Shown here: positions 573 to 7,115 of the stretch, piece after piece
Layout: every line of letters starts with the position of its first letter
How positions within the stretch are numbered: position 1 is the first letter of the stretch
From: Deltaproteobacteria bacterium
GTDB lineage: Bacteria; Desulfobacterota; DSM-4660; Desulfatiglandales; HGW-15
Direction of reading: 5' to 3'
Length of the DNA: 7,115 nucleotides
Assembly: GCA_030671095.1 (NCBI GenBank)
Contig: DAOVAK010000136.1
Span: forward strand, 1 to 7,115
The notes under the pieces: generated by a model
Told to the model about the DNA's origin: nothing
The model's database searches: none
The model's input: only the letters and a program-made list of their open reading frames with translations
Program-made: the position numbers and the translations under genes

Positions 573-577
573 ACCTT

Positions 578-583
578 CTCCTC
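578..583 (-). promoter_or_regulatory. Ribosome binding site of the nitroreductase gene
   Basis: GAGGAG on the minus strand, 5 nt before the ATG at 570-572, supports that start codon. Confidence 0.8.
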
Positions 584-599
584 TAAGTATCTTTTTCCC

Positions 600-757
600 T
601 GGAGTAATGGAGTAGTGGAGTATCGGAGTATTGGAAAAAGCTGAAACTCCTCAGATTCCATTATTCTTCGCGCTCGCTGCGCTCCGCTCAGTCCCCATCC
701 CTCTGTGATGGGTCCCCAGTTTCCATTACTCCATTACTCCATCACTCCAGTACTCCA
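600..757. repeat. Inverted pair of 8-bp tandem arrays between mutT and nitroreductase gene
   Basis: Left arm, plus strand 601-632: GGAGTAAT, GGAGTAGT, GGAGTATC, GGAGTATT. Right arm 723-754, plus strand: CCATTACT twice, CCATCACT, CCAGTACT. Aligned as an inverted repeat, 600-634 and 723-757 match at 29 of 35 positions. The 88-bp interior includes GAAACT (643-648) pairing with AGTTTC (718-723), a GC-rich block rich in CGCTC at 667-691, and the hairpin CCCATC/GATGGG (694-699 with 707-712, 7-nt loop). The right arm lies over the end of mutT and its stop codon; the left arm ends about 17 bp before the nitroreductase ribosome binding site. The layout copies that of 6708-7027 with an unrelated 8-bp unit. 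Confidence 0.85.
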
Positions 758-1169
758 CGGTTAATAATTCGATTATCTTCTCATCTGGTGGTGGAAAACG
801 GTATTGAGTCATATCCTCAGGATAGACCCATTTCATTTCTTCACACGCCAAAGGTTTGAGCTCACCACTCAAGTGGGAGCACTGAAATAGATAGAGGGAA
901 ATAATCCTGTCCCCATATTCGTGATCCACAGTAAGAAGGCGTTTTCCAGCGCGCACGTCTGCACCCAATTCCTCCTTCATCTCCCTTTCCAGGCACTCTT
1001 CCAGGGTCTCACCCACTTCTTGCTTTCCTCCAGGGAACTCCCAGTACCCTGCAAGATGGCTGCCCTCAGGGCGTTTTGTTATCAACACCATTCCGTTCTG
1101 CCATAGGAGTCCGGCAGTCACATGGAAATAGGGTTTGCTACTCCTTACCACCACGCGGCAAAGCCTCAA
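726..1169 (-). CDS. mutT: MutT-type Nudix hydrolase (probable 8-oxo-dGTP diphosphatase)
   Basis: MutT-type enzymes hydrolyse oxidised nucleotides such as 8-oxo-dGTP to the monophosphate, preventing A:T to C:G changes. The complete Nudix box, G-x5-E-x7-R-E-U-x-E-E-x-G, is present at residues 48-70 (GGKQEVGE, then REMKEELGA). It is preceded by LAGYWEFPGGK (39-49), typical of the MutT group. Exact substrate is inferred. The longest frame starts at TTG (1167-1169); GTG codons at residues 6 and 7 are equally plausible, with GAGG about 9 bases upstream, and the family similarity starts near residue 12. All options overlap the TPR gene end, implying translational coupling. The tail after IIELL (VEYWSDGVME) is encoded by four units of the 8-bp repeat at 723-757, so the natural C-terminus has probably been replaced or extended. 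Confidence 0.88.
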   Translation of the reverse strand: MRLCRVVVRSSKPYFHVTAGLLWQNGMVLITKRPEGSHLAGYWEFPGGKQEVGETLEECLEREMKEELGADVRAGKRLLTVDHEYGDRIISLYLFQCSHLSGELKPLACEEMKWVYPEDMTQYRFPPPDEKIIELLTVEYWSDGVME

Positions 1170-3126
1170 GTCTCAATCTGAGGTAGGCCTCTTCAGCCTC
1201 TTCATGCCCAGGCGAAATATCCAAGACTTTTTTGTAAGCCTCCAGGGCCTTCTTAAGATTGCCTTTCTCCTCTTCAAGCTTGGCTAATTGTAAGAGCAAC
1301 CGGACATAGGTCTCTTTGCCCTCTTTGCTGTCTGGTGAAATCTCAAGGATCTTTTCATAGGTCTGCAGCGCTTCAGGGAGTTTCCCCTGTTTCTCTTTGA
1401 GCTTGGCTAGATCCAAAAGCAAGGTTACATCTTTCGGCTTCCTTTTGAGGATTTCCTCCATCTGCTTGGTAGCAAGGTCCTCTTTGCCTGTTTTTAGATA
1501 GGCAACCATGAGATATTCCCTGAACTCAAGTCTCTTAGGATGAGATTTGAGACCACTTTTCATGATCTCTATCATCTTTTCATACTCTGCGCGGCTGTTC
1601 AGATATTCAAACATGTAACGATAATAGCTTATCTCCTTTGGTTTCAATTTGATAAGGGTCTGGGCTTCCTTGAAAGCCAGATCATCCTTTTTTTGCTTTC
1701 TATAGATATCAAACAGGAAACTGTGTACTTCTGCATCCTTTGGGTGTGACTTTAAGAATTTCTTAAAATGGGACAGGCTTTTCTCAAGATTGCCCGTCTC
1801 ATACTCTAGAACCCCCAAATTGTAGATAATCGTTTCGTTCTTTGGATCAATAGAGCGTATTTTGTAGTAGGTCTTTTTCAGCCCCTTTTTGTCCCCCTTC
1901 TTTTCCTGGATTTTGATCATCAGCAGTAATACCTCGAGGGACTTGGGACTTTTTTTAAGGACCACGGTGAGGTGTTTTTCCGCCTCTTTAAACTTTCCTT
2001 TCTTGATCAAGCTCTCTGCCAGCTTCAACCGGCTATCCACGTCTCCTGATTTGAGACGGACCGCTTTTTCCAGATAGAGATCCGCTTTCTCTCTTTGGCC
2101 TGTCTCTTCGTACAGATGTGAGAGGTTGTAGTAAAGATTTGCATCCCTCTTATCCATTTCGACGGCCTTGCGGTAATTGGAGATGGCCTTTTTGGGTTGA
2201 TTGGTTTTCGTGTAGAGGTATCCCAGCGTTTTATATATGGCCACCATGTCCGCTTTTTTGAGTCGTTTCAAAAGCCTCTCATACTCTCGAATGGCCTCTT
2301 TGAGTTTCCCCCTTTTTTCCAAAGTTGACGCCAATCGGAGTCGGGTTTCCACATCATCTGGGTGCTTCTTAATGATCCTTCTAAGGACAGAAATGACCTC
2401 ATCCTTTCTCCCCGTGGATTCATAGACTTCAAGCAGATCATATAGGAAACCTTCATCAGGTTTCTCTTGGGCCATCTCTTCGAGAATCAAGGCAGCCTTT
2501 TGCCAATCCTTGAGCGATTTGTATTCTTCAAGCAATCGGTTCCGGATCCGATCGTCCTTGGGCATCAGCTGCAGCGCCCGTTCCAAAAGGGCAACCCTCC
2601 GATTCCTATCAATAATCCTTTCTGCCCGCTCGAGCCAATCTTCTATATGAGGTTCAACAATTATGTCCACGTGACCCAGGTCTTGATTAAACTGTTTAAT
2701 CATCACCCTAAAGCTGTATTGATTGAATATGTCTCTGTCTGGCAACAGGACCGCGATTGGTATTTCCTCAATGAGAAGGGCATTTGCATCAAAACCTCTG
2801 GCAACCAGACGCACACCCCGATTGAAACATATATTTGTTGAGACTTTCAGTATCTTTAGCGTGTCTTTAGGATGAAGACGAAGGACCTCTCCATTCACGA
2901 GCTTAAGGGGGGCCTCATTCTTTTTTAGGAGTATGAAATTAAATTCAGGCGAGACATTGTGGAGGCAGGACCAAAGCCGCCAGCCCCCGTAGATAGCAAC
3001 AATCACTAAGAGGATAATTACCCAAAAGCGTATTTTTCGGGCACGGCGTTTTGTTCGTTTTTTCTTATATTTCTCGTAACGATCCACGATCAGGCAATGA
3101 GGTTTTCCACTCCTGCTTGCATCCAC
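1138..3126 (-). CDS. Membrane-anchored tetratricopeptide repeat protein
   Basis: This 662-aa protein has a very basic cytoplasmic start (KKKRTKRRARKIR, 21-33), one membrane helix at about 34-52, and no signal-peptidase site that I can see, so it is probably anchored with the bulk outside the cytoplasm. Residues about 60-165 form a non-repeat region of unknown type. From about 170 to the end run roughly 13 units of 34 residues with TPR spacing (for example YNLGVLEYETGNLEKSLSHF and LAKLKEKQGKLPEALQTYEK), many ending in P-K-D or P-D-D; lysine content is high. TPR arrays bind protein partners; the partner is unknown. The start taken is GTG (3124-3126) with GGAG four bases upstream; a later in-frame GTG at residue 14 has no better site. 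Its position after secF suggests an envelope or export role. It overlaps mutT by 32 bp. Confidence 0.85.
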   Translation of the reverse strand: MDASRSGKPHCLIVDRYEKYKKKRTKRRARKIRFWVIILLVIVAIYGGWRLWSCLHNVSPEFNFILLKKNEAPLKLVNGEVLRLHPKDTLKILKVSTNICFNRGVRLVARGFDANALLIEEIPIAVLLPDRDIFNQYSFRVMIKQFNQDLGHVDIIVEPHIEDWLERAERIIDRNRRVALLERALQLMPKDDRIRNRLLEEYKSLKDWQKAALILEEMAQEKPDEGFLYDLLEVYESTGRKDEVISVLRRIIKKHPDDVETRLRLASTLEKRGKLKEAIREYERLLKRLKKADMVAIYKTLGYLYTKTNQPKKAISNYRKAVEMDKRDANLYYNLSHLYEETGQREKADLYLEKAVRLKSGDVDSRLKLAESLIKKGKFKEAEKHLTVVLKKSPKSLEVLLLMIKIQEKKGDKKGLKKTYYKIRSIDPKNETIIYNLGVLEYETGNLEKSLSHFKKFLKSHPKDAEVHSFLFDIYRKQKKDDLAFKEAQTLIKLKPKEISYYRYMFEYLNSRAEYEKMIEIMKSGLKSHPKRLEFREYLMVAYLKTGKEDLATKQMEEILKRKPKDVTLLLDLAKLKEKQGKLPEALQTYEKILEISPDSKEGKETYVRLLLQLAKLEEEKGNLKKALEAYKKVLDISPGHEEAEEAYLRLRLEALPRGGKE

Positions 3127-3206
3127 CCGGCTCCACAGATCGGAGAGGTGGTGAGAAGTGCAAGAGTGTCCTGTGGGTTATGAGGTAGGTCATCCATAGC
3201 CATCCT

Positions 3207-4274
3207 TCACGAACGGGCTCCTTTCCGGCCCTTGACTTTTCGGGCAAGTTGGCTTTCCCAAATCAGGAGTATGGGACTCGCTACAAAGATAGAGGAATAG
3301 GTTCCCACGAAAATGCCCACTAAAATGGCAAAAGCGAAATCATGGATGACACCACCACCCAGAATGAATAAAGCCGCTACAACGATTAAGGTGGTTGTGG
3401 AGGTGAGGATGGTCCTGCTCAATGTTTCGTTTATGCTGGCATTTATCACTTCTTCAAGGCCTCGCCTCCGGAACCGTCTTAAATTCTCCCTGATCCTGTC
3501 AAAGACCACAATAGTATCGTTCAGGGAATACCCCACGATGGTAAGAAAGGCGGCGATTATGGCGAGAGATATTTCTCGGTTTGTTAAAGCAAAGGCCCCG
3601 ACAGTAATGGTGACATCATGTATGAGGGCAATAACAGCACCCATGGCGTATTTCAGTTTGAGGACCCAGCACAGCCCAAGGGTAACCACAAAGGAGATCA
3701 GGATCAACCAGGTCACGCTGACTCCAAATGTTGAGGCGATCCAGACGACAAATGCGAGTGAGAGGGCCATGACAATACTCATTAGCCATTTGAACTCAAA
3801 CCGCCCAGATATATAGATCGCGATGAAAAGGATGGCGTAGAAAATGGCAAATAGGGCCTTCTGCCTCAAATCCTCACCAACCTTTGGGCCGACCATTTCC
3901 ACTCTTCTTATCTCCGCCCCTTCTCCCAGCTGAGAAGCTAATGTCTCCTTCACTTTGTCGCTCAATCCGGACAGTTGAATATCTGTACTTCTGACCCTTA
4001 TAAGATATTCGAATTGCCCCTCCTCACCAAATTCCTGGATGATGCTGTCCTGGAGTTGCAGGGACTCCAGTGCATCTCTGATCTCGGAAGGTGTCCGCTT
4101 CGTCTCCAATTTGACTTGAATAAGGATCCCACCAGAAAAATCCACCCCTAAGTTGGGACCGCCCCGCCAAACGAGCAAAAAAATCGTGATAATGACCATG
4201 GCAAGGGATAGAGAAAAAGCGGTTTTTCTTTTGCCTATGAAATCAATATTAATCCCTGGCTTTATAAATTGCAT
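3207..4274 (-). CDS. secF: Protein translocase subunit SecF, with an extra membrane segment
   Basis: SecF is the partner of SecD in the proton-driven export complex. The 355-aa product has helix 1 (about 18-37), the periplasmic motif GVDFSGG (43-49), [13 protein letters not shown] (129-141), then [14 protein letters not shown] (213-226), [20 protein letters not shown] (245-264) and [15 protein letters not shown] (282-296). All are diagnostic of SecF. Between RFEF (158-161) and YAMGA (209-213), normally only a few residues apart, lie about 45 mostly hydrophobic residues (roughly 162-208) that look like two additional helices, giving eight rather than six. The ATG at 4272-4274 has only a weak Shine-Dalgarno (AGGT), and the 424-bp gap from secD means expression may need its own promoter or long read-through. 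The TPR gene starts 80 bp downstream. Confidence 0.96.
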
Positions 4275-4292
4275 GTGATTACCTATCCTAAT

Positions 4293-4357
4293 TAAGTGAT
4301 CTAAAGTGTCTAAAGTGATCTAAAGTGCCTAAAGTGAAACAAAGTGTCTAAAGTGCC
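4293..4357 (+). repeat. Seven-copy ~9-bp tandem repeat (TAAAGTGNC) upstream of secF
   Basis: Plus-strand units, in order: TAAGTGATC, TAAAGTGTC, TAAAGTGATC, TAAAGTGCC, TAAAGTGAAAC, AAAGTGTC, TAAAGTGCC. The core TAAAGTG is nearly invariant while the spacer gives lengths of 8 to 11 bp, unlike the strict 8-bp and 7-bp arrays elsewhere in the window. The array ends 18 bp before the secF start codon, so it lies in the secF leader. Two more copies in the same direction occur at 4460-4478. Confidence 0.85.
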
Positions 4358-4454
4358 TGCCCGCCAATGCCCCCTTGCTCAGGATGCTTCAACTCGCCCA
4401 AGCAGTGAGACCCGAGCAAATAGACGGCATCACCCATTAATGGCTCTGGCAGGC
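4355..4454. repeat. Inverted-repeat core between TAAAGTG arrays
   Basis: GCCTGCC (4355-4361) and GGCAGGC (4448-4454) form a perfect 7-bp inverted pair. The interior has a weaker pair, TTGCTC (4375-4380) with GAGCAA (4414-4419), and the perfect palindrome CCATTAATGG (4434-4443). The stretch has no coding frame of note. It looks like the body of a small element whose edges are the TAAAGTG repeats, but no target duplication can be shown. Confidence 0.45.
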
Positions 4455-4459
4455 GGGTC

Positions 4460-4478
4460 TAAAGTGAGCTAAAGTTGG
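4460..4478 (+). repeat. Outlying TAAAGTG repeat copies
   Basis: TAAAGTGAGC and TAAAGTTGG repeat the unit of the array at 4293-4357 in the same orientation, about 100 bp away. With the main array they flank the stretch at 4355-4454 as direct, not inverted, repeats. Confidence 0.7.
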
Positions 4479-4516
4479 ATCTGACTTTTTTCTGTAAATC
4501 ACATATTCCTATCATG

Positions 4517-4655
4517 TATAGTGAACGACCTGAATAAAATGGCATTACAACGCTTGTCATTGCGAGCACCAGCGAAGCAATCTCGAGAGATTGCCACGTC
4601 CCCCGCATCAAGTGCGGGGTCCTCGCAATGACTCTTTTCTATGTCGTTCACTATA
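4517..4655. mobile_element. MITE-like element with perfect 13-bp inverted ends
   Basis: TATAGTGAACGAC (4517-4529) recurs inverted as GTCGTTCACTATA (4643-4655), a perfect 13-bp terminal inverted repeat bounding 139 bp. Both ends finish with TA. If the terminal TA is counted as target, this fits the TA duplication of IS630/Tc1-mariner-type transposition, so a non-autonomous (MITE-like) element is the best guess. It contains no open frame and carries a complete REP-like palindrome inside (4556-4632), so it is either a nested insertion or one composite element. No transposase is in the window; family assignment is inference. Confidence 0.65.
4556..4632 (+). repeat. REP-like palindromic element (GTCATTGCGAG family), intact copy
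   Basis: Perfect 11-bp outer arms GTCATTGCGAG (4556-4566) and CTCGCAATGAC (4622-4632) enclose two further perfect stems. CAATCTC/GAGATTG (4578-4584 with 4587-4593) has a 2-nt gap, and CCCCGCA/TGCGGGG (4601-4607 with 4613-4619) has a 5-nt loop. The 77 bp could fold into a branched cruciform-like structure. It shares GTCATTGCGAG and the CGAAGCAATCTC block with the degenerate copy upstream of yajC, in the opposite orientation. Such elements can be mobilised by REP-associated Y1 transposases in other bacteria; whether that holds here is unknown. Confidence 0.8.
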
Positions 4656-4656
4656 G

Positions 4657-4698
4657 TATCCAGTATCCGGCATCCGGCATCGGGTATCCGGCATCCGG
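4657..4698 (-). repeat. Six-copy 7-bp tandem repeat (CCGGATG/A) at the secD stop
   Basis: Read on the minus strand from 4698: CCGGATG, CCGGATA, CCCGATG, CCGGATG, CCGGATA, CTGGATA, six exact 7-bp periods with few substitutions. The array begins directly after the secD TGA (4699-4701 includes the stop) and ends one base short of the inverted-repeat element at 4517-4655. In one frame it reads as repeated CRIPDAG-type peptides, but there is no gene there. Confidence 0.85.
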
Positions 4699-6300
4699 TC
4701 ATATACTAATCTTCTTCCATCTCCTGGATGTGTAAAGATAGTCAAAGATGACCCTCGTAATGAATACAGCGGTGACAAAACTTGCCACAATGCCAATACT
4801 GAGGGTCACTGCAAAGCCCCTGACTGGACCGGTACCAAACTGAAACAATACAAGGGCAGCAATAAAGGTTGTCACATTGGCATCCAGAATGGTGACCAGT
4901 GCCTTTGCGTATCCTCCCTCAATGGCAGCCCGGGCTGGTTTCCCCAATCTCAATTCTTCTCGTATCCGCTCAAAAATCAGAACATTCGCATCCACAGCCA
5001 TACCAATAGTGAGAATCATCCCAGCTATACCTGGCAGCGTCAGAGTGGCACCAAAAAAGGCGAGACCGGACATAATGAAAAGAATGTTGAGCATGAGCGC
5101 CAAATCCGCAAAGACACCAGAGAGGCCATAGTAAATGATCATAAAAAGAATGACGACAAGTCCTCCGATGATCATGGACTTAAATCCCTTTTCTATGGAG
5201 TCTTTCCCTAAGGAGGGACCCACCGTCCTCTCCTCCAATATCTTTACGGGTGCGGGAAGGGCACCAGCCCTCAAAACGATGGCTAGGTCCCGCGCCTCAT
5301 CCATGGTGAAGCGCCCTGTGATCTGCGCCTTTCCTCCCGCTATTCTATCCCTTATGACAGGCGCAGAATAGACGTGGTTGTCGAGCACGATGGCCAGTCT
5401 TTTGTCTATATTCTCCCCTGTTATCCGTTCAAACAGCCTTGCCCCTCTCGCATTAAATGATAGAGAGACTTGGGGTTCGTTGTATTGATTGTCGATTTGG
5501 ACTCTCGCGTCAGTAAGATATTCTCCAGTGAGCAGAGTTCGTCTCTTGAGCAAGTAGGGAATTCTTGTTTGCCGTCCTGATTTAGGATCTGGGGATATCT
5601 GGTAGAGAATTTCCTTGCCCGGAGGAATATTGCCTTTCAATGCCTCCTCCAGGCTACTCTCCTCATCAACCAGCTTGAATTCCAGAAGGGCTGTTTTACC
5701 TATGAGCTCTATGGCTCTTTTAGGATCCTTGATACCTGGGAGCTGGACCAGAATTCTATGATTCTCTTGGGGCCTGATATCCGGTTCACTGACTCCAAAC
5801 TGATCAATGCGATTTCTGATCGTCTCCAGGGCTTGATCTGCGGCCAATTTCATGATTCGGACTTTGGCCTTTGGATTTAGAACCAATCGAAGTGATATCC
5901 CTTCCTCTTTGTACGGACCCGACTCTGTCTTGTAATCGGGAAAGTTGACCTTCACCAGGTCCTCAAAAGTCTTTTTGTCTTCTTCCCTCATGAGCGTCAG
6001 GTCAATGCCTTCGGTCCCATGACGTTTGAGTTCCAGATACCTGATTTTGCTCTTGCGCAAATCATGCTTAAACTCTTCCACCACCCTCTCCAGGTGGCTT
6101 TCCACCGCTTTGCCTGCATCAACTTCCAGGATCAGGTGCATGCCGCCCTGAAGGTCAAGACCGAGCTGTATCTTCTCTTGCGGCAAAAAACTGGACCACC
6201 ATGCTGGAAGCTCACCCCTTAGGGATGGGGTTAGATAAAGGAATGCCATGAATACGAGAAAAGCGACTATAGCTCCCCGCCAGCTTAAGTTCTTTGACAC
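4699..6300 (-). CDS. secD: Protein translocase subunit SecD
   Basis: SecD pairs with SecF as an RND-like, proton-driven factor that completes translocation of preproteins emerging from SecYEG. The 533-aa product begins at GTG with a strong ribosome binding site. A first membrane helix (about 10-24) leads into the periplasmic P1 domain with LGLDLQGG (46-53), IRNRIDQFGVSEPDI (161-175) and VQLPGIKDPKRA (185-196). Five C-terminal helices follow from about residue 374. They include the signature TIGMAVDANVLIFERIREE (431-449), whose Asp437 corresponds to the membrane aspartate needed for proton coupling, and a glycine-rich FGTGPVRGFAVTLSIG (488-503). The length matches standalone SecD proteins that lack the E. 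coli extension. yajC lies 66 bp upstream. Downstream, secF, normally adjacent, is 424 bp away behind repeats; a CCGGATG array touches the stop codon. Confidence 0.97.
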   Translation of the reverse strand: MSKNLSWRGAIVAFLVFMAFLYLTPSLRGELPAWWSSFLPQEKIQLGLDLQGGMHLILEVDAGKAVESHLERVVEEFKHDLRKSKIRYLELKRHGTEGIDLTLMREEDKKTFEDLVKVNFPDYKTESGPYKEEGISLRLVLNPKAKVRIMKLAADQALETIRNRIDQFGVSEPDIRPQENHRILVQLPGIKDPKRAIELIGKTALLEFKLVDEESSLEEALKGNIPPGKEILYQISPDPKSGRQTRIPYLLKRRTLLTGEYLTDARVQIDNQYNEPQVSLSFNARGARLFERITGENIDKRLAIVLDNHVYSAPVIRDRIAGGKAQITGRFTMDEARDLAIVLRAGALPAPVKILEERTVGPSLGKDSIEKGFKSMIIGGLVVILFMIIYYGLSGVFADLALMLNILFIMSGLAFFGATLTLPGIAGMILTIGMAVDANVLIFERIREELRLGKPARAAIEGGYAKALVTILDANVTTFIAALVLFQFGTGPVRGFAVTLSIGIVASFVTAVFITRVIFDYLYTSRRWKKISI

Positions 6301-6306
6301 GGTCTG

Positions 6307-6313
6307 CTCCTTT
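6307..6313 (-). promoter_or_regulatory. Ribosome binding site of secD
   Basis: AAAGGAG on the minus strand lies 6 nt before a GTG codon. This near-consensus Shine-Dalgarno is what decides for the GTG start at 6298-6300. Confidence 0.85.
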
Positions 6314-6366
6314 GTGTTTTCTTCTGTACCAGAGGGCTTCTGTAGATCAACAGAAGCGAACTATCT

Positions 6367-6687
6367 TCACTCGGCCTTTAACATACCGGCTATGGATCCC
6401 CGTGCGACCTTCACCCTTATCTTTGGGGCTATCTCCACGGTGACCGCGTTTTCCTTCATTCCGGTAATCTTTCCGTGAAGTCCGCCGTTGGTTACGACCT
6501 TATCCCCCACTTTTAGGGCGCCAAGCAGCTCCCTATGCGCCTTAGCCTTCTTCTGCTGAGGCCTTATGAGCAAAAAATAAAAGATGCCGAACAGAAGAAT
6601 AAGGGGGAGGAAGGTGGTGAAGCCTCCTCCCTGTCCGCCTGCTCCTCCTGTACCACCTGTTCCCAAAGCGTATGCCAATGTATCCAT
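6367..6687 (-). CDS. yajC: Preprotein translocase subunit YajC
   Basis: YajC is a small single-span inner-membrane protein that co-purifies with SecD-SecF and the SecYEG channel. The product is 106 aa, normal for the family. A glycine-rich periplasmic N-terminus (residues 9-22, mostly GG and GT pairs) is followed by a membrane helix at about 25-41 ending in the hallmark LIRPQQKKAK. The conserved cytoplasmic domain then contains LKVGDKVVTNGGLHGKI (about 58-74) and a basic KIRVKVARGSI near the end. The ATG start has a strong ribosome binding site. It is transcribed after tgt and before secD, the standard order, but a 339-bp repeat-filled gap separates it from tgt. Identification is secure; the unusually glycine-rich start is the only variation seen. 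Confidence 0.96.
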   Translation of the reverse strand: MDTLAYALGTGGTGGAGGQGGGFTTFLPLILLFGIFYFLLIRPQQKKAKAHRELLGALKVGDKVVTNGGLHGKITGMKENAVTVEIAPKIRVKVARGSIAGMLKAE

Positions 6688-6693
6688 TATGTT

Positions 6694-6700
6694 ACCTCCA
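6694..6700 (-). promoter_or_regulatory. Ribosome binding site of yajC
   Basis: TGGAGGT on the minus strand lies 6 nt before the ATG, a strong Shine-Dalgarno. It fixes the yajC start at 6687. Confidence 0.85.
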
Positions 6701-6745
6701 TTCAGTTTGGTTAAGTAGTTAAGTGGTTGAGTCGTTGAGTTGTAA

Positions 6746-6765
6746 GGCTGTCATGCTGGACAGCC
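6746..6765. other. Short perfect hairpin upstream of yajC
   Basis: GGCTGTC (6746-6752) and GACAGCC (6759-6765) form a perfect 7-bp stem with a 6-nt loop, ATGCTG. There is no T-run beside it on either strand, so it is not a typical intrinsic terminator. It lies just inside the left arm of the 8-bp repeat arrays and may be part of that element. Confidence 0.5.
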
Positions 6766-6803
6766 AGTTGCATAATCCCGTACTCCGCTAGGCTACGTGG
6801 TGA

Positions 6804-6903
6804 TCATTACCATCCCGTCCTTGCGACCTCCGATCCAGTCGGGGGGGAAGCAATCTTTTGGCCAGGAGATTGCTTCGTCGTCCGTGGGACTCCTCGCAAT
6901 GAC
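6804..6903 (-). repeat. REP-like palindromic element (GTCATTGCGAG family), degenerate copy
   Basis: On the minus strand the element begins GTCATTGCGAGGAGTCC (6903 leftward) and continues to CGAAGCAATCT. A perfect 10-bp stem, GAAGCAATCT (6847-6856) with AGATTGCTTC (6867-6876), encloses a 10-nt loop. The distal arm is decayed or interrupted: 6804-6826 keeps TCATT and TTGCGAC but separates them with about 12 unrelated bases. Similar GTCATTGCGAG...GAAGCAATCTC sequences are, to my knowledge, dispersed intergenic repeats in several bacterial groups. A second copy of the family lies in the secD-secF gap (4556-4632). It is probably non-autonomous; no transposase is present in the window. Confidence 0.75.
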
Positions 6904-7026
6904 ATTTTGTGAACATGGCAAAATTTCTGAATATTGCACATGAATCAGCCCGCGGACGACGATGATTCTTCTTGAATCCTTAGTTTCCTCTAAACGACTC
7001 AACCACTCAACCACTCAACCACTCAA

Positions 7027-7115
7027 CTAATCCAAAATCTCCACTTCTTGAAATTTGCAAAAATCTTGACGATACTCTTCCCATCTTCCTTCCTGGATGG
7101 CTCGGCGTATATCAT
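7027..7115 (-). CDS. tgt: queuine tRNA-ribosyltransferase, C-terminal end (partial)
   Basis: Reading the minus strand from the window edge, an open frame ends in DIRRAIQEGRWEEYRQDF followed by ten more residues and a TAG stop; 28 codons are visible. The pattern D-I-R-x-A-I-x-E-G-R-(W/F)-x-x-(Y/F)-x-x-x-F matches the C-terminal helix of bacterial Tgt, which exchanges guanine-34 of GU(N) anticodon tRNAs for the queuosine precursor preQ1. The catalytic barrel and zinc site lie outside the window, so the call rests on this tail plus gene order: tgt directly upstream of yajC-secD-secF is a very common bacterial arrangement. The stop codon is followed at once by the 8-bp GTTGAGTG repeat array that fills the gap to yajC. 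Confidence 0.8.
   Translation of the reverse strand, partial: DIRRAIQEGRWEEYRQDFCKFQEVEILD

Follow-up and report, generated by a model that had tools for sequence, protein, structure and literature searches.

Inverted arrays of 7–9 bp words in operon spacers of a desulfobacterial locus: probable copies of a mobile hairpin resembling rRNA intervening sequences

The inverted arrays of short tandem units in two gene spacers of the window (the whole 7115-base stretch of DNA analysed here) are probably copies, lacking an open reading frame (ORF), of a mobile hairpin that resembles the intervening sequences (IVSs) of rRNA genes and that has settled in operon spacers. On the basis of the ORF list, the window encodes, on the minus strand throughout, the end of tgt, yajC, secD, secF, a tetratricopeptide repeat (TPR) protein, and mutT-like and nitroreductase-like genes. 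The two spacers are gap 1, on the mutT side, and gap 3, between yajC and tgt; gap 2 lies between secD and secF. The proposed element would consist of two arms, one the inverse of the other, each an array of a 7–9 bp word, and the loop of its full copies would encode a protein of family PF05635. The product of PF05635 genes is here called IVP; it is also known as 23S rRNA IVP, S23p or four-helix-bundle protein.

Gaps 1 and 3 contain the following features (TRF, Tandem Repeats Finder).
600–635, plus strand: gap 1 left arm, an 8-bp array of TGGAGTAN with 4.5 units (TRF and our own detector); the family occurs in the genomes of 15 of 32 relatives.
636–721, no strand: gap 1 loop, of which approximately 664–722 is a dispersed repeat.
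722–757, minus strand: gap 1 right arm, an inverted copy of the 8-bp unit of this gap, 4.5 copies (TRF).
726–1169, minus strand: mutT-like gene, an ORF whose C-terminal residues are encoded by the array.
6710–6743 (TRF, 6710–6740), plus strand: gap 3 arm beside yajC, an 8-bp GTTRAGTN array, 3.9 copies (also our own detector).
6744–6989, no strand: gap 3 loop, in which 6847–6925 is a dispersed CATTGCGAG-type palindrome.
6990–7027 (TRF, 6993–7027), minus strand: gap 3 arm at the tgt stop, an inverted copy of the gap 3 unit, 4.4 copies (our own detector, fold).

An earlier note on this DNA had described arrays in the three gaps, and both TRF and our own detector find them where it placed them. 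Its inverted arms of about four 8-bp units are those of gaps 1 and 3; gap 2 is without an inverted pair of one unit. It also put arrays at the mutT and tgt stop codons: the former (726–728) lies within the right array of gap 1 and the latter (7027–7029, frame 2 reading) touches the right array of gap 3. Alignments of the MutT-like protein to 15 relatives stop at residue 136–139 of 147 in 13 cases, at residue 129 in one and at residue 145 in one. The transcribed strand of gap 1 is predicted to fold into a long hairpin, with a stem of about 40 bp and a single 1 × 1 mismatch in each 8-bp unit (z −8.5), and that of gap 3 into a long, almost unbroken hairpin stem (z −8.9).

Genome-scale tests were conducted with the genomes of relatives, not with the window's own genome. 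A first survey, of 7–9 bp units with our own detector, covered the window and 80 SecD loci (81 records, 1.21 Mb). It found 53 arrays, where two block shuffles gave 0 and 1. Of the 53, 41 are mostly intergenic, in records where intergenic sequence makes up 11.5 per cent of the bases. A general sample of 90 records (1.81 Mb) was composed of the 80 SecD loci, the window, the first 400 kb of genome G029 and eleven stretches (eight contigs) of genome G015. The SecD loci and G029 were chosen blind to arrays, G015 for its many GTTRAGTN matches. There are 106 arrays in this sample, 82 of them mostly intergenic (intergenic bases, 13.3%).

The intergenic arrays tend to occur in inverted pairs. An inverted partner was defined as the reverse-complement unit, in two copies at 85 per cent or more, no more than 400 bp away. 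Such a partner accompanies 31 of the 82 intergenic arrays, compared with 11 of 484 units borrowed from other arrays, and the same unit in direct orientation is found within 400 bp of 6 of the 82. The excess is present in the SecD loci (19/54; control 10/323), in G015 (10/17; control 1/100) and in the window (2/4; control 0/24). The test proposed in the earlier note, whether the arms of one gap resemble each other above random, is therefore passed, G029 excepted. Of 52 arrays, 22 are no more than 15 bp from a stop codon, where uniform placement would give 12.1; at the same distance from a start the count is 10 of 53 and the expectation 9.4, which is no excess; genes were taken as simple longest ORFs, with rough start positions. 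The link of arrays to gene ends, also claimed there, thus holds for stops and fails for starts. Of the spacers measuring 60 bp or more, arrays are present in 45 of the 571 tandem ones, 5 of the 108 convergent ones and 7 of the 151 divergent ones.

The arrays are strongly associated with IVP genes, a connection that the earlier note had not anticipated. Matches to PF05635 are found in 73 of 85 genomes (69 above the curated cut-off), as many as 24 in a single genome; 14 control genomes have none. For the flank test, at least 100 bp were required on each side of the IVP gene (n = 89), and a locus passed when an inverted array of the same unit lay across the gene at 0.85 or above. There is an array in either flank of 75 loci and in both flanks of 43, and 61 carry inverted arrays of the same unit. 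The corresponding numbers for 499 control ORFs of 80–190 aa are 38, 1 and 3, with control flanks (200 bp outside plus 40 bp inside the ORF) slightly unlike those of the IVP loci; all three passes come from the array-rich G015 and there are none among 454 ORFs elsewhere. Inverted arms are present in 24 of 30 loci that are the best matches of their genomes and in 37 of 59 picked further down the match list, from which rows with stops, rows at contig starts and some others were skipped. One of the latter, L418, was picked knowing of its adjacent GTTGAGT arrays, and is scored as a miss. After thinning by shared outer flanks, 36 of 61 clusters pass by their first member, as do 28 of 52 singletons; when flanks are swapped between IVP loci, 1–4 of 86–88 pass in five draws. 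On plasmids, mostly of Cyanobacteriota with one from Bacteroidota and one from an alphaproteobacterium, 13 of 16 IVP loci pass. This set comes from a single-IVP query (20 records, 16 taken; three more Riemerella records and a second Calothrix brevissima plasmid were excluded). Among the failing plasmid loci, L419 and L434 have G/A-rich or C/T-rich short repeats that were probably dropped by the low-period filter, and L427 scores 0.71.

At IVP loci, the upstream array stops short of the IVP domain by a median of 14 bp (n = 53), and a median of 20.5 bp separates the domain from the start of the downstream array (n = 48). G exceeds C in 54 of the 66 upstream arm units and is below it in 4; the left arm of the hairpins has a purine majority in 25 of 29 cases (14 of 17 in the SecD loci). 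Among 2066 pairs of IVP loci whose flanks are not shared, IVP identity is correlated with unit similarity (r = 0.294; 0 of 2000 permutations). Nearly the whole correlation comes from pairs with more than 50 per cent identity, and it is almost gone below that level; it therefore shows that gene and arms travel together and does not in itself demonstrate binding of the arms. Exact matches to units of IVP arms occur for 5 of 29 hairpin units (controls 0, 1 and 0).

The words of gaps 1 and 3 are both found beside intact IVP genes elsewhere, though rarely. In locus L467, the gap 1 word, GGAGTANT, precedes an intact IVP gene in four units and follows it in three. Locus L466 shares these arms, except that an insert interrupts the upstream one. 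In L465, which is the place of L090, a single unit precedes the gene and three follow it, and L468 is a looser case. More distant members of this IVP subfamily have TGGAATNN arms (L469, L470, L471 and L474). For gap 3, an arm of GTTGAGT type lies upstream of an intact IVP gene in L136 (the place of L418 and L435), and its inverse about 320–350 bp downstream of the match. Each of gaps 1 and 3 therefore has a word that belongs to a particular IVP subfamily. In L472 (1252–1704, genome G029), an IVP gene of the GGAGTANT subfamily is split into two matches with internal stops, a copy that was broken where it lies.

The unit families are dispersed. Three consecutive GGAGTANT units with two mismatches allowed give 352 partly overlapping matches in the 15 genomes mentioned above, up to 132 of them in G020, and the reversed pattern gives one match in one genome. 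The GTTRAGTN pattern is found in 27 of 85 genomes, with no more than two matches per genome for its reversed control; in G005 and G006 many of these arms lie within a miniature inverted-repeat transposable element (MITE) of about 180 bp with YAGAYCTCGTTRAGT ends. Possible 5-bp duplications, noticed by eye in a few copies of this MITE, are not claimed. No facing pair of YAGAYCTCGTTRAGT ends lies 1–3 kb apart among the matches, as an autonomous insertion sequence would have, on contigs that are short. The earlier note gave each gap a unit of its own, which is right locally; beyond the locus, the units belong to dispersed families.

Evidence of movement comes from the family with the terminal repeat GTAACTACNCAGGT, present in 39 of 85 genomes. 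Eighteen of its pairs were chosen for two ends facing each other: target duplications match at 7 or 8 of 8 positions in 12 of them (8 of 8 in nine) and at 0–5 bases in the remaining six. A complete element of 453 bp in L395 has terminal repeats GTAACTACTCAGG, GCTGAAG arrays, an intact IVP gene and an 8 of 8 target duplication; the duplication of a second candidate complete element, L412, matches at 3 of 8. Shortened GTAACTAC elements with the same terminal repeats as L395 keep fragments of the IVP gene (L311 and L318). The IVP elements of L380 and L389 are 97 per cent identical, their outer flanks differ, and similarity ends in or near the arrays. As to the common generating process supposed in the earlier note, the part that is supported is movement into gene borders: families are dispersed, one terminal-repeat family has 8-bp target duplications, and a given spacer has been refilled by other families. 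In relatives, the GTAACTACNCAGGT family shows dispersal, terminal repeats, target duplication and no transposase, as MITEs do. The family with GTAA ends and 8-bp duplications may belong to IS66. Eukaryotic Foldback-type elements have terminal inverted repeats and internally repetitive arms, and no transposase. The present elements share these features, with target duplications in one family, and differ in that their arms are 7–9 bp words with fixed and free positions and that full copies carry a PF05635 gene.

According to the mechanism we propose, copies would move between sites and, within operons, survive in spacers, which would leave them with a stop codon on one side and the following start on the other. 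Once transcribed, the arms would pair into a long stem with mismatches that is probably either tolerated or cleaved by RNase III, by analogy with rRNA IVSs. The invariant letters of the unit have probably been preserved by a factor that reads them, IVP being the first candidate, and constraint by such a unit-reading factor would best fit the arrays. The hairpins of the window would descend from IVP-bearing copies. Spacer repeat arrays, inserts in rRNA genes and a small protein of unclear role may be one thing.

Several observations weigh against this account. The window has no IVP match at E 0.05 and no IVP remnant, and neither outer terminal repeats nor a target duplication were seen by eye at gaps 1 and 3. 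Gap 2 does not follow the two-arm plan. Inverted partners are absent from G029 (0/7; control 0/37). The 90 IVP loci (30 best matches and 60 picked) are strong matches rather than a random draw, and the general sample contains 6 IVP matches, some of them fragments, of which 3 pass the flank test. Among the 89 loci, 28 score below 0.85, 7 of these without an array at the detector's settings, and the IVP genes of L397 and L400 have 9-bp arrays (AACCCAATA and ACCARACAA) in the same orientation on both sides, not inverted. At 0.85 or above, 9 hairpin units are shared with IVP arms, against 13 for the reversed-word control, and none of the 66 IVP units comes nearer than 0.75 to GGAGTANT or to the GTTRAGTN unit of the window. 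IVP matches occur in only 4 of 217 records and in 2 of the 130 loci fetched for arrays of these two families (L090 and L136). The IVP genes with the window's words were found through such loci, with the IVPs of L090 and L136 as queries and 16 of 60 returned loci read, and attest to existence, not frequency.

Some of these points also favour a different explanation, that the hairpins are ordinary MITEs whose inner arms are arrays by chance, IVP genes being passengers inserted or trapped in them and IVP no parent of the window copies. Arms of GGAGTANT are found in no fewer than five backbones, which differ in their ends and look unrelated by BLAST and by eye, and the single terminal repeat GTAACTACNCAGGT comes with GGTTCAA, GGCTGAA or GGCACAAA arrays. 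Arms and backbones are thus combined many-to-many, and arms may therefore move without IVP, which again tells against a tie between the two. Hairpins without an ORF are the commoner form (29 inverted pairs in the general sample, as opposed to its 6 IVP matches), and the scarcity of IVP genes in loci of the window's two unit families agrees with passengers. This explanation is disfavoured by arrays that match across IVP genes far more often than swapped flanks do, by distances between array and IVP that are tight for random capture, and by an IVP similarity that predicts the unit at sites without shared flanks. We consider it unlikely.

Growth of the arrays in place, by slippage or by copying of one arm onto the other without any insertion, would explain why unit numbers differ. 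Between the close relatives L005 and L006 the difference is one 7-bp unit in the yajC–secD spacer and more than one in the secD–secF spacer; unit number also varies among copies of one element, and strains of Coxiella are one heptamer apart (PMC4990558). The composition of the units argues strongly in the other direction. Of the eight positions of GGAGTANT, six are nearly fixed (0.35 bits or less) and two are free (1.0 and 1.8 bits) across 264 units; in GTTNAGTN units, positions 4 and 8 are free (1.1 and 1.8 bits), position 6 is partly variable (0.83 bits) and five are fixed. Identical neighbouring units are rarer than among random pairs (0.07 versus 0.16 for GGAGTNNT; 0.07 versus 0.12 for GTTNAGTN), and variable letters common to both arms show no excess over chance in these two families. 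For GGAGTNNT (14 clusters), arm matching is 0.361 versus 0.400 (s.d. 0.05) in the outer register and 0.309 versus 0.413 (s.d. 0.048) in the inner one; for GTTNAGTN (3 clusters), it is 0.329 versus 0.355 (outer) and 0.369 versus 0.358 (inner). An arm-to-arm anti-correlation of variable letters, strong at first, shrank with one element per cluster and was dropped. Had slippage or arm-to-arm copying been recent, identical neighbours and letters shared between arms would be expected, and growth in place also leaves unexplained the 352 dispersed matches to one unit pattern and the exact target duplications of one family. It is most improbable as an explanation, and the slippage or templated hairpin copying put forward in the earlier note as generators are not upheld, even though changes in unit number do occur.

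The same spacers were compared in relatives. The secD–secF spacer, taken from the last secD codon to secF, could be measured in 76 of the 81 records, the window included, in which both gene ends were placed: it is 11–97 bp long in 68, and that of the window, at 427 bp, is the longest. Insertion into so short a spacer largely yields the observed position between stop codon and ribosome site. In a comparison of 33 syntenic records, some of whose spacers were unmeasurable, secD–secF arrays consist of TTTCGAA in L002, AATATTC in L003, AAGTG-type units in L005 and L006, and ACCTATT in L007; secF–TPR arrays consist of CAATCGC in L006 and GAACATC in L008. The yajC–secD spacer contains an IVP element in L003 and an ORF-less hairpin in L005 and L006, and is 76 bp long in L004 and L012. 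Different words at the same spacer are explained by different families inserted at different times, and descent from a single repeat fails. The earlier note's rejection of such descent is accordingly right for the three gaps jointly; each unit family is itself a dispersed repeat.

These spacers also bear on a regulatory view, in which the arrays serve as terminators, mRNA-stability stems or multi-site operators and are kept by selection acting on the flanking genes. The strong RNA folds of gaps 1 and 3 and the excess at stop codons would suit it, and short tandemly repeated repetitive (STRR) hairpins of cyanobacteria have been proposed to stabilize transcripts or couple translation (PMC2670836). 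Most relatives, however, have the short secD–secF spacer, those with arrays carry different words at the same place, and there is no excess at starts. A regulatory origin is, in our estimation, quite improbable.

One of the closest known systems is the 23S IVS (PF05635, TIGR02436), also a short stem-loop with an inverted-repeat stem; here, the IVP ORF is in the loop of full copies only. A stem of tandem short units is found at gaps 1 and 3 and, across the class, at the 61 passing IVP loci. In the 23S IVS of Coxiella burnetii, the stem measures 28 bp, and tandem heptamers, two or three depending on the strain, lie upstream of the S23p ORF (PMC4990558). In the passages of that paper cited here, the heptamers are reported for one species and not as a general rule. 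IVSs lie in helix 45 of rRNA and are excised by RNase III, whereas the present elements lie between protein genes, most of the hairpins have no ORF, and PF05635 reaches two dozen matches per genome. A joint report of IVP genes and flanking repeat arrays in general was not found in the open-licence PMC literature, except for the Coxiella heptamers, and may be in print elsewhere.

STRRs of filamentous cyanobacteria are usually 7-bp, intergenic and hairpin-forming, for example at hupS–hupL (PMC2670836, PMC2408588). The present arrays are likewise dispersed, intergenic and able to form hairpins, with units of 7–9 bp and not of 7 bp only; the arrays at cyanobacterial IVP genes would be STRRs. The STRR accounts, in the passages cited, make no link to IVP (PMC2670836, PMC2408588). 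The Nostoc repeat ttgtcagttgtcagttgtca (csR1.1, not an STRR; PMC2408588, table 3) is the same word, GTTGTCA, that occurs in G015 and flanks the IVP genes of L380 and L389. The TAACTGA repeats of Beggiatoaceae are also intergenic heptamer arrays with a patchy distribution over distant phyla; they are direct, mostly just upstream of starts, and have been proposed as binding sites of a post-transcriptional regulator (PMC4679880), whereas the arrays described here are inverted. Repetitive extragenic palindromes (REPs) and the hairpins they form (REPINs) are small palindromic intergenic repeats in many copies (PMC3116915), and differ from the present elements, whose arms are tandem arrays.

An IVP from the array loci has as its closest structures 2gsc (E 3.6e-29) and 2rld (E 8.8e-08), of five chains each, and a match below the cut-off to the NCBIfam model of Avd of diversity-generating retroelements. 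S23p of Xanthomonas is a homopentameric ring, and the function of S23p proteins was not known as of 2016 (PMC4990558). We tentatively suggest, as an idea that is more doubtful than not, that rRNA IVSs, STRR hairpins and desulfobacterial spacer hairpins form one cross-phylum mobile class that is recognized by its own protein, the pentameric four-helix-bundle IVP. Every subunit of the ring would read one 7–9 nt word of an arm, as RNA or as single-stranded DNA. Such reading would account for the length of the unit and the small number of units in an arm, for positions that are fixed or free, and for the drift of words with protein subfamily. If PF05635 genes are the cargo of array-armed mobile hairpins, a function can be hypothesized for the protein, the reading of the arms; many short intergenic repeat arrays would be explained, and the origin and movement of 23S IVSs would become directly testable. 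IVP genes inside operons such as cas and cmr clusters may then be hitch-hikers, not partners. On cyanobacterial plasmids, array-armed IVP genes are located between cas6 and cas4 in two records and between cas10/cmr2 and cmr3 in one (L420, 492–851; L429, 480–848; L432, 486–842). A CRISPR-mining paper shows 23S rRNA IVP in a figure legend (PMC10910872), and this co-location of IVP and cas genes could be a hitch-hiking insertion.

Gap 2 looks like a mosaic made up of further dispersed repeats, namely a MITE, a palindrome, and TAAAGTG and CCGGATR arrays. Its features are as follows.
4294–4355, plus strand: array of TAAAGTGNC, 6.5 copies of a unit of about 9 bp, with indels (TRF).
4357–4457 (limits approximate), no strand: GC-rich palindrome within the TAAAGTG array (sequence reading, fold).
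4458–4476, plus strand: additional TAAAGTG units in unchanged orientation (sequence reading).
4517–4655, no strand: MITE-like element of 139 bp with terminal repeats TATAGTGAACGAC/GTCGTTCACTATA (dispersed matches, copy in L243).
4656–4699, minus strand: 7-bp array CCGGATR (overlapping 7 and 14 bp TRF rows; our own detector).

Some part of gap 2 matches in 46 of 85 genomes. Among the matches listed, its query positions 344–406, the TAAAGTGNC array, are found in many genomes, and positions 42–182, the MITE-like element, in G045, G038, G044 and G013 at 70–77 per cent. The copy of this element in L243 is readable at both ends, and dispersal and terminal repeats are both present; in the window it adjoins the 7-bp array, which abuts the secD stop (4699–4701), as had been claimed. 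The TAAAGTG units flank the inserted palindrome in one orientation. The same-unit inverted pair and the inverted stem of tandem units are both absent from gap 2, whose fold is weaker (z −3.8) and has its strongest stems in the inserted palindromes.

The names of the window genes are based on similarity and gene order; the relatives' matches to them are the computed part. SecD is 80 per cent identical to that of Deltaproteobacteria Meg22_1214_Bin_272, and the nearest genomes are desulfobacterial metagenome-assembled genomes; one of the proteins closest to SecF, with 95 per cent identity, is labelled 'Nitrospira bacterium SG8_3'. At the gathering score, the only Rfam match in the window and nine loci (L082, L098 and L106 included) is a tRNA in L084. 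Parts of the loops are dispersed as well: for gap 1, query positions 49–107 (approximately) match G048, G002 and G051, and 75–107 match G001; for gap 3, query positions 105–183 match G044, G041 and G038, and 105–162 match G045. Palindromes of the type CATTGCGAG...GCAATC are present in the gap 3 loop (6847–6925) and in the MITE-like element of gap 2 (4517–4655), and similar sequence is dispersed in several relatives. A GGAGTANT array cluster in G020 (contig C325, 6959–7201) has arrays on both strands about 40 bp apart. A further dispersed element has short end hairpins of the CCGGGCCCAGAGGACCCGG type (L193, L199, L220, L082, L098 and L106); some of its copies host GGAGTANT arms, and the one in L106 has GTTGAGT arms.

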